Below, in pieces: positions 50,673 through 54,301 of a stretch of 64,000 nucleotides of DNA. The translations under genes and the position numbers were made by a program. Under the pieces are notes generated by a model, which saw only the letters and a list, made by a program, of their open reading frames with translations, searched no databases and was not told the DNA's origin. The stretch's first letter is position 1, and each line of letters opens with the position of its first letter. This DNA comes from Halopiger xanaduensis SH-6 (GTDB taxonomy: Archaea; Halobacteriota; Halobacteria; Halobacteriales; Natrialbaceae): positions 694,270 through 758,269 of the forward strand of contig NC_015666.1 in NCBI RefSeq assembly GCF_000217715.1, given 5' to 3'.

Positions 50673-50791
50673 TTCCGTCTCACGCGGCTGTCGACGCCGA
50701 TCGCCGCCTTCCCTACCTTTTTGACAGTCGGCCGCGGTGTCTCCGATCAGGGTCGTTCTTTAGGCTCGCCAAAATCGAAGCACATTTATTG

Positions 50792-50809
50792 TTTTAGGCT
50801 AGCCTAAAA
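50792..50809 (+). promoter_or_regulatory. DtxR-type iron box of the siderophore operon
   Basis: TTTTAGGCTAGCCTAAAA is a perfect 18-base palindrome between the TATA element CATTTATT (50783-50790) and the leader ATG at 50814. A worse copy (TTTAGGCTCGCC) lies at about 50759. This is the classic place for DtxR/SirR-family repression by iron. Confidence 0.82.
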
Positions 50810-50813
50810 ACAC

Positions 50814-50933
50814 ATGAAACGAGACGCGACCGCGTACTGGCGACTCCCGGCTAGATCGGCGGCTGTCCGGCAGGACACCGGACGACGACGGGTCGTCGGT
50901 CGGACGCGAAACGGAGGGGTCCTCCGTGCCTGA
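50814..50933 (+). CDS. 39-residue Arg-rich leader ORF before the iron permease
   Basis: The ATG 4 bases after the iron box opens a 39-codon frame (MKRDATAYWRLPARSAAVRQ...RTRNGGVLRA). It ends at a TGA 5 bases inside the permease gene (GTG at 50926), in another frame. The overlap and the leaderless position suggest its translation opens the hairpin at 50913-50925 and couples to the permease. A free peptide function is possible but unsupported. Confidence 0.5.
   Translation: MKRDATAYWRLPARSAAVRQDTGRRRVVGRTRNGGVLRA
50913..50925 (+). promoter_or_regulatory. Shine-Dalgarno sequence within a hairpin
   Basis: GGAGG-GGT-CCTCC can fold into a 5-bp stem with the SD as one arm and the GTG start of the permease directly after it. 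The SD-to-start distance (8 bases) is ideal, but the stem would block it until a ribosome on the leader ORF melts it. Confidence 0.65.
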
Positions 50934-52083
50934 GACGGCGCCAGAGGGGGTTTCCTCGTCGAGAACGGAGACGGACCGAGATCGCTTTTCGCTGGTTGAT
51001 TCGAAGCTGCTTTCGGTCTGTCTCGGCGGCTCGCTGATCGTCTTTATAAGCGGCTTCGTCCAGATCAGTTTCGGCGCGTACTCGATGTCCTTCGGCGAGG
51101 CCTGGCGGGCGCTGTTCGATACGACGGTGCTGTTCGACTACCGCTGGCTGCTCAACTTCCTGCTCGGCGAGGGACTGCTCGAGACGCTGACGGGGTATCG
51201 GGCCGGCGAACTGCCCGAGCTGTCGACGGCGACCCACATCGTCTGGAACATCCGGCTCCCGCGGGTTCTCACGGCGATTATCGTCGGGGTCAACCTCTCG
51301 GTCTCCGGGGCGATCTTCCAGGCGGTCACCCGGAACGAACTCGCGAGCCCGTTCATTCTCGGCGTCTCCTCGGGAGCCGGACTGATGATCCTGCTCGTGC
51401 TGACGGTGTTTAGCGGCCTGACGACGATCCTGCCGCTGATCGCGGCCATCGGCGGCGCGATCGCCTTCCTGCTCGTCTACGTCATCGCGTGGAACCACGG
51501 AACGAGCCCCGTTCGACTGGTGCTGGCCGGCGTCATCGTCAGCACCGTCTTCGGCTCCTTCCAGACCGCGATGTTCGTCTTCACCGACGACATCGCCGTC
51601 GTCCAGCAGGCGATCTCGTGGCTGAACGGATCGCTCACCGGCGTCAACTGGCAGCACGTCCGGATCGCGCTCCCGTGGTCGGCCGTCTCGGTCGGGCTGG
51701 CGTACCTGAGTTCGCGACAACTGAACGTCCTCCTGCTCGGCGAACAGACGGCCTCGTCGCTCGGGATGTCCGTCGAACGGGTCCGGTTCGGGCTGTCCGG
51801 GATCGCGGTCCTCGCGGCGGCTGCGAGCATCGCGGTCGCCGGCATCGTGAGCTTCGTCGGGCTCATCGTCCCGCACGTGGTGCGCAACGTCGTCGGGAGC
51901 GACTACCGGAAGCTGATGATCGGCTGCGTCTTCGTCGGCCCGGCGCTGATGATCGTCGCCGACGTCGGCGCACGGCTCGCGCTCAGCCCCGTCCAACTCC
52001 CGGTCGGGATCGTCACCGGGCTGATCGGCGGCCCGTACTTCCTCTACCTGATGCGCCGGAAGGAGAACCTGGGTGAGGTCTGA
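50926..52083 (+). CDS. iron(III)-siderophore ABC transporter permease (FecCD)
   Basis: This 385-residue permease has the FecCD/BtuC pattern: about ten helices, IRLPRVLTAIIVGVNLSVSGAIFQAVTRN, LASPFILGVSSGAGL, GIVSFVGLIVPHVVRNVVGSDYRKLM and LPVGIVTGLIGGPYFLYLM. It starts with GTG and ends in an ATG overlap with the ATPase gene. It forms the membrane channel of the importer with the next two gene products. Confidence 0.94.
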   Translation: MPETAPEGVSSSRTETDRDRFSLVDSKLLSVCLGGSLIVFISGFVQISFGAYSMSFGEAWRALFDTTVLFDYRWLLNFLLGEGLLETLTGYRAGELPELSTATHIVWNIRLPRVLTAIIVGVNLSVSGAIFQAVTRNELASPFILGVSSGAGLMILLVLTVFSGLTTILPLIAAIGGAIAFLLVYVIAWNHGTSPVRLVLAGVIVSTVFGSFQTAMFVFTDDIAVVQQAISWLNGSLTGVNWQHVRIALPWSAVSVGLAYLSSRQLNVLLLGEQTASSLGMSVERVRFGLSGIAVLAAAASIAVAGIVSFVGLIVPHVVRNVVGSDYRKLMIGCVFVGPALMIVADVGARLALSPVQLPVGIVTGLIGGPYFLYLMRRKENLGEV

Positions 52084-52991
52084 TGAGTGGGACACACACA
52101 TCTCCTGAGACGGACGCCGACCGCAATCGCGCAACGGACGCCGAGGAGCCGACCGACGAGAATCCACACCTGACCGGCACCGACCTACGGATCGGCTATC
52201 CGGAGGCCGACGAACTGGTCATTGACGGCGAGTCGCTGAGCGTACCCGAGGGGCAGGTGACGGCGCTGATCGGCCCCAACGGCAGCGGCAAGAGCACGCT
52301 GCTGAAGGGGATCGCCCGACAGGTTTCCCTCGAGTCGGGCTCGGTGCTGCTCGACGGATCGGATATCCACGAGCTCGAGAAGAAGGAGTTCGCCCGGAAG
52401 CTGGGGCTGCTCTCCCAGGAGAACGTCTCGCCGGGCTCGCTGACCGTCGAGGAACTCGTCTTCCACGGCCGGTACCCCCACCGGGGCTTCTTCGAGTCCA
52501 CAACTGACGAGGACGAGGCCGCCGTCGATCGCGCGATCGCGCTGGCCGGCGTCGACCACCTGCGGGAAACCGAACTCGACAGCCTCAGCGGCGGCCAGAA
52601 GCAACTCGTCTGGATCGCGATGGTGCTGGCCCAGGAGACCGACGTGCTGTTGCTCGATGAGCCGACCACCTTCCTCGACGTCCACCACCAGCTCGAGGTC
52701 ATGGAGATCGTCGAGGCGCTGCGCGATTACAGCGACGTGACGATCGTCCTCGTGCTCCACGACATCGAGCAGGCGGCCCGCTACGCCGACTACCTGCTGG
52801 CGCTGGACGGCGGCTCGATCTACGCCCGCGGCCCGCCCGAGGAAGTTATCACCGAGGAACTGCTCGCGGACGTCTTCGAGATCGAAGCGGCGGTCGAATA
52901 CGGCGGCGAGACCGGCCCCGACATCACGCCGCTCGGGCCGCTTCACGACGAGTCGACCGACGACGTGCGGCGGGAGATCCTGCGTCGCTGA
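52083..52991 (+). CDS. iron-siderophore ABC transporter ATP-binding protein
   Basis: This 302-residue ATPase has Walker A GPNGSGKSTLLKG, the Q-loop LSQENVSPGS, the signature LSGGQKQLVWIAMVL, Walker B VLLLDEPTTFLD and the H-loop LVLHDIEQA. It overlaps the permease stop by one base, so it is translationally coupled. The organisation matches FepC/BtuD-type importers. Confidence 0.95.
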   Translation: MSGTHTSPETDADRNRATDAEEPTDENPHLTGTDLRIGYPEADELVIDGESLSVPEGQVTALIGPNGSGKSTLLKGIARQVSLESGSVLLDGSDIHELEKKEFARKLGLLSQENVSPGSLTVEELVFHGRYPHRGFFESTTDEDEAAVDRAIALAGVDHLRETELDSLSGGQKQLVWIAMVLAQETDVLLLDEPTTFLDVHHQLEVMEIVEALRDYSDVTIVLVLHDIEQAARYADYLLALDGGSIYARGPPEEVITEELLADVFEIEAAVEYGGETGPDITPLGPLHDESTDDVRREILRR

Positions 52992-53044: not shown

Positions 53045-53060
53045 TTTAGGCAAACCTAAA
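53045..53060 (+). promoter_or_regulatory. upstream iron box of the binding-protein gene
   Basis: TTTAGGCAAACCTAAA has exact arms TTTAGG/CCTAAA and lies just before the TATA element TACTTTTAATG (53067-53076). With the box at 53079 it brackets the promoter. Confidence 0.72.
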
Positions 53061-53078
53061 TGAATATACTTTTAATGT

Positions 53079-53094
53079 TTTAGGCTTGCCTAAA
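53079..53094 (+). promoter_or_regulatory. downstream iron box of the binding-protein gene
   Basis: TTTAGGCTTGCCTAAA has 7-base arms around TT and ends 4 bases before the ATG at 53099. It is the same spacing as the operon's first box, so both transcripts should respond to the same regulator. Confidence 0.78.
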
Positions 53095-53098
53095 CTAC

Positions 53099-54301
53099 AT
53101 GGTCCAACGACGACGGATACTCGCATCGAGCGCAACGCTCCTCGGCGTCGGTACGGCCGGCTGTCTCGGTGGAGACGACTCGGGGAACGGCAACGGCAAC
53201 AGTAACGGGAACGGAACCGGCAACGACGACTCGAGCGACACCGGAAACGGCGAGGAATCGTCGGCGCAATCGGTCGACGACTCCTACGAGGTGTGTCTCG
53301 AACCCGCGGGCTGTCACACCTTCGAGGAGGTCCCGGAGACGGTCTTTACCATCCCCGGTGCGGCCGAGGACATGGCGATGTCGCTCGGCATTCAGGTCGA
53401 CGCCCACGCCTATCCCGAGCGCAAGCCGTACAAGTTCTACGACCAGCTGCCGGGCGTCGAGCACGATCCGGACGAGATCCTCCAGTACGGCGAGGGCGAG
53501 TCCGCCCGCAACTACGACAAGGAAATCTTCTACGAGGTCGACCCGGACGTCGTCCTCGCGGACCCGCGAATGCTCCAGTTCTACTCCAACTGGAGCGACG
53601 AGGACATGGCGGAGATCGAGGAGAACGTCGCGCCGATCCTCGGGTCGTACATCCGCTTCGATTACGAGGGTGAGGAGCCCTACTACACGATGTACGAACT
53701 GTTCGAGCGGATCGCCACGATATTCCAGCGACGGGCGCAGTACGAGGCCTGGGTCGACCTCCACGACGAGTTCATCGACGGGATCGAGTCGGACCTTCCG
53801 GACGGCGAAGGGCCGACCGTCGCCGTCTTCTGGCGCGGCATCGACGCCGAGGCCGGCGAGTTCCAGCCGGCGCCGATCCACGAGAAGCGCAACGACGCCC
53901 GGAGCTTCCGCGATCTGGGTTTCCGCGACGCCTTCGCCGAGGCCGGCCTTGACCCCGACGGCGCGGTCGGCTACGAGACGCTGCTCGATCTCGACCCCGA
54001 CTACATCGCCGCCTACAACCTCTCATCGATGACCGGCGACGAGTGGCGGTCGCAGGTCGTCGAACCGCTCGAGGACCACTCGACCGCGAGCCGGCTCTCG
54101 GCCGTCCAGAACGGCAACGTCGTCCGCTCCGCCGGTCAGTTCATGGGGCCGATCACGCACCTGTTCTCGACCGAGGCGCTGGCGAAACAGGTCTATCCCG
54201 ATCGATTCGGCGAGTGGACCGGCGACTCGGAGGCTGTTCCCGAGGACGAACGGCTGTTCGACCGCGAACGCGTCGCCGAGATCGTCACCAACGATCTCTA
54301 A
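53099..54301 (+). CDS. iron-siderophore ABC substrate-binding lipoprotein
   Basis: This 400-residue protein has a twin-arginine signal (VQRRRILASSATLLG) and lipobox TAGC. A Gly/Asn/Asp-rich linker precedes a FepB/BtuF-type domain (TFEEVPETVFTIPGAAEDMAMSLG... EVDPDVVLADPRML... TVAVFWRGIDAEAGEF). It delivers the ferric chelate to the permease encoded just upstream. It has its own promoter with two iron boxes, allowing extra binding protein. Confidence 0.94.
   Translation: MVQRRRILASSATLLGVGTAGCLGGDDSGNGNGNSNGNGTGNDDSSDTGNGEESSAQSVDDSYEVCLEPAGCHTFEEVPETVFTIPGAAEDMAMSLGIQVDAHAYPERKPYKFYDQLPGVEHDPDEILQYGEGESARNYDKEIFYEVDPDVVLADPRMLQFYSNWSDEDMAEIEENVAPILGSYIRFDYEGEEPYYTMYELFERIATIFQRRAQYEAWVDLHDEFIDGIESDLPDGEGPTVAVFWRGIDAEAGEFQPAPIHEKRNDARSFRDLGFRDAFAEAGLDPDGAVGYETLLDLDPDYIAAYNLSSMTGDEWRSQVVEPLEDHSTASRLSAVQNGNVVRSAGQFMGPITHLFSTEALAKQVYPDRFGEWTGDSEAVPEDERLFDRERVAEIVTNDL

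Follow-up and report, generated by a model that had tools for sequence, protein, structure and literature searches.

Why is a haloarchaeal siderophore permease gene set apart from its iron-type promoter box by a reading frame of only 39 codons? The question arises at a locus of Halopiger xanaduensis lying within a 64-kb stretch of DNA, the whole of which was analysed and is referred to here as the window. A preliminary description held that ribosomes on this leader melt a hairpin around the SD motif of the permease, so that permease translation follows leader translation, and that stalling for charged tRNA-Arg could tune the process. The elements on which that proposal was built, namely the palindrome, the 39-codon frame, GGAGG-GGT-CCTCC and an 8-nt overlap of leader stop and permease GTG, are all in place:

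50760-50773: weaker iron box TTAGGCTCGCCAAA, 34 bp 5′ of the main box, two mismatches to the core
50785-50790, + strand: TATA-like TTTATT between both boxes, centre about 26.5 nt 5′ of the leader ATG
50792-50809: main iron box TTTTAGGCTAGCCTAAAA, a perfect 18-base DtxR/FerR-type palindrome
50814-50933, + strand: leader ORF (candidate starter cistron), 39 aa, probably leaderless
50913-50917, + strand: SD motif GGAGG, putatively assigned to reinitiation at the permease
50921-50925, + strand: CCTCC arm after GGT, possible local hairpin with the SD motif, unconserved (1 of 53 loci)
50926-52083, + strand: FecCD-family siderophore permease, GTG at 50926, 8-nt overlap with the leader stop
52083-52991, + strand: ABC transporter ATPase, ATG overlapping the permease TGA
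53046-53093: box pair 34 bp apart (53046, 53080) with a TATA-like element between, preceding the binding protein
53099-54301, + strand: periplasmic binding protein (Peripla_BP_2), ATG 5 nt past its box core

The leader begins with ATG at 50814, four bases past the box, and runs for 39 codons, ten of them Arg, to a TGA at 50931-50933. The permease (385 aa; Pfam PF01032, E 1e-90) is read in a different frame, and its closest named relative among the compared matches is from Natrialba hulunbeirensis (78% identical).

The iron box and its regulon

The box is one of a recurrent set of sites. Its 14-base core, at three mismatches or fewer, has five matches in the window against 0.19 expected; at one mismatch or fewer it occurs at 15 sites in the 4.36-Mb genome, where a reversed control pattern finds none. 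An ATG follows 4-10 nt behind 13 of these 15 sites, and the long genes opened by such box-proximal ATGs are mostly binding proteins, judged by their signal sequences. Among ten other genomes, 41 of 64 box-plus-ATG sites open a frame of at least 150 codons. Many boxes of the window's genome have a partner box 34-36 bp upstream, as have boxes before other leaders.

The palindrome thus recurs at iron genes and sits at promoters, as is characteristic of a DtxR/FerR regulon, and a DtxR-family regulator gene (next to L213; PF01325, E 3.9e-13) itself lies behind a box in this genome. The recurrence of the core at iron genes and the presence of this regulator gene support the earlier reading of the site as an iron-type box at a promoter. 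The published DtxR consensus shows a TTAGG half-site in common with the window box (PMC1382209). A FerR regulon of haloarchaea, with a regulatory signal before fhu siderophore-transport genes that resembles the present arrangement, is named in PMC11349517, citing Leyn and Rodionov 2015; the relevant part of that account mentions no leader ORF, whereas one is present at our locus. We regard the box as a putative FerR signal, an identity that comes through this citation. Elsewhere in the window, at 31235-31248, an iron-type box with two mismatches is followed after 6 nt by a 58-aa ORF whose stop falls on no gene start, an atypical arrangement.

The leader layout is found at five boxes of this genome in all. 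Besides the 39-aa leader of the permease, the instances are:

L204, C3 of the same genome, 1377993-1378018: 26-aa leader before an FAD/GMC oxidoreductase, SD motif GGAGGGG, ending on GTG
at an iron box of the same genome: 10-aa leader before a glycosyltransferase
at an iron box of the same genome: 39-aa leader before another binding protein
L213, C3 of the same genome, about 2919293-2919350: 56-aa leader before the DtxR-family regulator, ATGA junction, two facing box pairs

The DtxR-family regulator may control itself through the same leader layout. Genes similar to it are preceded by 43-aa leaders in two other genomes (L340, L352). Two further short ORFs behind boxes of the same genome (L194 and L210) have no stop/start junction. 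The ten other genomes have 23 short ORFs behind boxes, and in 13 of these the stop falls on the start of a further ORF with at least 100 codons, a raw count without a shuffled control; some of the non-matching short ORFs are the palindrome read in the opposite direction.

Leaders before the permeases of relatives

We classified 193 distinct permease loci, four duplicates (L127, L188, L280, L247) having been removed beforehand. The sample is non-random: the best-scoring relatives came first, and 20 and 80 places picked by hand from the same lists were then added. From one list of 80 relatives, 58 loci were discarded as bacteria plus one Thermoplasmata archaeon. Directly 5′ of the permease stands a flavoprotein gene in 62 loci and a short ORF directly behind the box in 59, while the permease ATG itself follows the box in 25 and a binding protein is upstream in 16. 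The remainder comprises four loci with a SnoaL-like gene (called by eye), two in which a binding protein is followed by a short ORF, and 25 others. The leader's place is therefore filled elsewhere by whole genes or left empty, and the 25 permeases directly behind a box indicate that such permeases can dispense with a leader.

Leaders were defined as starting 2-13 nt behind a box (at most four mismatches) and ending before +60, a rule that leaves outside L182, L237 (GTG starts), L239, L246, L250, L258 (ATG about 42 nt behind the box), L253, L263 and L279. L139 was removed from the set of 59 because its 'box' sits inside a binding-protein gene; at this locus an ORF of 24 aa separates binding protein and permease. 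For the permease start, the 5′-most ATG in the region from -75 to +12 nt around the beginning of the match was taken, or in its absence the 5′-most GTG or, lastly, TTG.

On these definitions, the leader stop lies -5 to +8 nt from the permease start in 53 of the 59 loci against 9.9 (sd 2.7) expected from shuffled leader interiors with random frame, an excess somewhat flattered because the shuffles ignore descent and leaders running past +60 go uncounted. Weighting over the 33 dissimilar sequence clusters into which the leaders fall leaves 27.0 overlaps against 5.2 expected. Stops are at +1 in 27 loci, +5 in ten, -5 in six, +8 in five, +7 in three and -3 in two; the six misfits are L007, L058, L131, L192, L218 and L230. 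In the window's own clade, leader and overlap are present in all nine full-length loci, with leader lengths of 28 to 66 aa. The stop/start proximity typical of termination-reinitiation pairs is thus seen both in the window and in these 53 relatives. The window junction GTGCCTGA (+5) overlaps by 8 nt, whereas the commoner overlaps in relatives are of 4 or 1 nt; it lacks the RTGA tetramer of the mycobacterial type, and longer overlaps are said to couple less well in a review passage (PMC12548453).

Two shifts of frame were noticed among these loci. L137 and L132 are close leaders that differ by a one-base indel and have different stops (+5 and +1), each of which overlaps the start of the permease; this amounts to a frameshift with coupling kept. 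At L007, the leader frame ends 46 nt 5′ of the permease ATG and a second frame reaches that ATG through a perfect ATGA; this may reflect a recent frameshift within a leader.

Evolution of the leader and start of the message

The leader peptide evolves nearly neutrally. Between the window and its sister species, leader and permease have the same dS of 0.19, whereas dN is 0.135 for the leader (dN/dS 0.71) and 0.02 for the permease (dN/dS 0.10). Leader dN/dS falls at 0.4-2 in most other pairs (25 pairs, mutually related, with just some 70-80 permease codons at hand for loci L147 onwards). Searches of the leader ORF against NCBIfam and Pfam returned no match. The best reading of these comparisons is that the start and stop of the leader matter and its peptide sequence does not. 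In-frame indels were also considered as evidence of constraint (multiples of three make up 38 of 99 gaps in the leaders and 57 of 226 in the upstream sequence), and were discarded because all compared loci keep the overlap, so that net lengths are forced; indel alignments below 80% identity are in any case unreliable.

The A+T profile 5′ of the ATG peaks at -29 to -26 both in the 59 leaders and in 49 long genes behind boxes, and is near-identical between the two groups. From this shared profile and the position of TTTATT, we infer a leaderless message: the transcript probably begins at or next to the leader ATG. Leaderless transcripts are the common form in Haloferax volcanii, where they make up 72% of protein-coding transcripts (PMC4983044).

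Decayed first genes as a source of leaders

Where do such leaders come from? Sequence comparison demonstrably identifies several leaders of relatives as internally deleted first genes, either of binding proteins or of flavoproteins, with their ends kept. L262 and L267 (177 aa) join a binding-protein Tat/lipoprotein signal to the second half of a flavoprotein (118 and 128 bits). L263 is a flavoprotein with its middle deleted (166 bits in two pieces), and L054 (111 aa) matches two separate flavoprotein parts across an internal deletion (48 bits). L320, a 52-aa ORF that precedes a flavoprotein and overlaps it at +1, retains the two ends of a binding protein, scoring 34 bits against the N-terminal and 15 bits against the C-terminal profile, with none of 200 shuffles as good in either case. 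L253 (57 aa, after a binding protein) has a weak flavoprotein match of 7 bits that none of 200 shuffles equals. Of the 62 short ORFs tested, nine score better against the binding-protein N-terminal profile than all 200 shuffles (L320, L230, L262, L267, L216, L130, L138, L137 and L015).

Most short leaders match neither profile, and the window's own leader is among them: 70 of 200 shuffles score as well against the binding-protein profile and 22 of 200 against the flavoprotein profile, so a fossil origin for it is unsupported by these two profiles. Flavoprotein likeness of L002 and L216 (about 2 bits, equalled by 2-3 of 200 shuffles) was not used as evidence.

The distribution of leaders on the permease tree speaks for repeated origin. 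The short-leader label needs 12 changes on a tree of 94 rows built by a quick method, at least three of them forced by well-supported branches. Holding all 33 leader rows together on an 88-row tree, from which long-branch or awkward rows (L059, L047, L058, L184, L030, L007) were left out, is rejected with p-AU 4e-53. Judged by these trees, a single origin is rejected, and leaders arose repeatedly in haloarchaeal iron operons. L133 has an intact flavoprotein gene within an otherwise short-leader permease clade, a pattern that may reflect either a late loss of the gene from neighbouring lineages or gene exchange.

A probable starter cistron and its alternatives

We consider it probable that the 39-codon ORF is a leaderless starter cistron under iron control, from which ribosomes pass to the permease by termination-reinitiation. 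Transcription would start at or next to the leader ATG and be repressed at the box by a DtxR-family regulator. With the transcript beginning at that ATG, ribosomes would load on the leaderless mRNA, translate a leader peptide of irrelevant sequence, terminate at the TGA overlapping the permease GTG, and reinitiate there with help from the SD motif. In several relatives, the leader is the remnant of a former first gene and would be kept for its start at the promoter and its stop on the next start.

Several published observations accord with this scheme. Haloarchaea are reported to employ the SD motif when they reinitiate but not when they initiate de novo; translation of the downstream gene is lost once the upstream gene carries a premature stop, and is not eliminated by removal of the SD motif (PMC6728339). 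In agreement with the reported use in reinitiation, an SD motif of at least 4 nt precedes the permease start in 34 of 53 loci, against a mean of 18.7 and a maximum of 30 in 200 shufflings. Haloarchaeal coupling is nearly abolished at a distance of about 20 nt, and 15 nt of upstream gene suffice for coupling, as demonstrated in E. coli (PMC10666635). Termination-reinitiation coupling explains the data without hairpin or Arg stalling.

That the permease is translated in the wake of its leader, as first proposed, remains probable given the excess of overlaps; melting of the hairpin as the means is not supported by comparison with the siderophore operons of related genomes, in which the overlap is kept and the hairpin is not. 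The window leader does carry a hairpin and Arg at 10 of 39 codons, yet the perfect hairpin is confined to the window among the 53 loci, and the sister species already has CGTCC for CCTCC. Relative to shuffled sequence, folding energy around the permease start (-40 to +25) is unremarkable, with a mean z of 0.07 and 4 of the 53 loci below -1.5; the alternative RNA structures of an attenuator are unsupported in that region of the 53 loci. The Arg count of the window leader has P 0.07 against stop-free base shuffles, off-frame readings of the window permease are equally rich (20 and 26% Arg), and leaders of at least 20 aa range from 5 to 33% Arg, as base composition explains, with no conserved run of regulatory codons such as an attenuator would have. 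Haloarchaea are, moreover, reported not to rely on SD motifs to initiate de novo. A leader that melts the SD hairpin under the control of charged tRNA-Arg is highly improbable. We also think it very unlikely that the leader is an ordinary operon gene with a functional small protein as its product: its frame has been maintained over long times, but near-neutral dN/dS in most pairs, the lack of NCBIfam or Pfam matches and the unlikeness of the 33 clusters argue against a selected product.

Leaders might instead be passing debris, functionless remnants whose overlap was inherited from an ancestral gene junction. Intact flavoprotein genes do have like junctions, 27 of 62 at +1 and 18 of 62 at -5. 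However, frame and overlap persist throughout the window's clade despite sequence turnover beyond recognition, and the cluster-weighted overlap far exceeds expectation, which makes this account unlikely. We give next to no credence to a frameshift at the overlap that yields a leader-permease fusion; the two frames do overlap at the junction, but leaders occur in both frames other than that of the permease (+1 in 27 loci, +5 in ten), and the permeases that start directly behind a box have no leader to be fused with.

Relation to known systems

The kind of arrangement proposed here is known from bacteria; the setting is new, and comes with evidence for repeated origin from decaying first genes. 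There is a close likeness to coupled leaderless small ORFs of mycobacteria, whose stops overlap the start of the next gene, which have been proposed to deliver ribosomes, and whose peptide has been called possibly irrelevant, as we propose for the window leader (PMC4633059). Those are bacterial and have a strict RTGA overlap, in contrast to the 8 nt of the window leader, and the relevant part of that study describes neither a tie to one regulon nor an origin as gene fossils (PMC4633059). A review passage likewise suggests that bringing in ribosomes may be all that a short ORF does (PMC12548453).

Within the same organism group, overlapping gene pairs of Haloferax volcanii have the same kind of junction, with an SD motif that is helpful and inessential; these pairs are full-size, whereas here the first cistron has 10-66 codons in most loci (PMC6728339, PMC10666635). 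Sixteen uORFs are reported in H. volcanii, among them a 31-aa one upstream of HVO_B0198, which is an ABC transport protein (PMC4983044). Like our leaders, they are short ORFs, in their case behind a mapped start site; unlike our leaders, they lie in long 5′-UTRs and encode acidic peptides of 15-31 aa, and stop/start coupling does not feature in the part of that source concerned (PMC4983044). In Corynebacterium glutamicum, a leaderless promoter, a fore-cistron and an SD motif likewise drive a second gene, but that bicistronic design is engineered (PMC10367133), whereas the window arrangement is natural and putatively iron-controlled. Searching the open-licence literature, we found no account of starter cistrons in the haloarchaeal iron regulon or as gene remnants.

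Implications for haloarchaeal operons

We lean towards a broader reading, in which worn-down first genes of leaderless haloarchaeal operons act as ribosome loaders whose ends are selected, and which serve as a general substitute for a 5′-UTR. The start and stop would stay under selection because they provide the sole ribosome entry for the next gene. If so, a considerable fraction of iron-box genes would make use of starter cistrons, as might genes outside that regulon. They would represent a natural, repeatedly evolved cistron whose value lies in its translation and not in what it encodes, with the intermediates of decay still visible. On this reading, it becomes testable how translation is achieved for haloarchaeal genes with a start codon away from the transcript 5′ end. 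It also carries a warning: where a promoter is regulated, an unannotated leader may be an indispensable part of the gene that follows.
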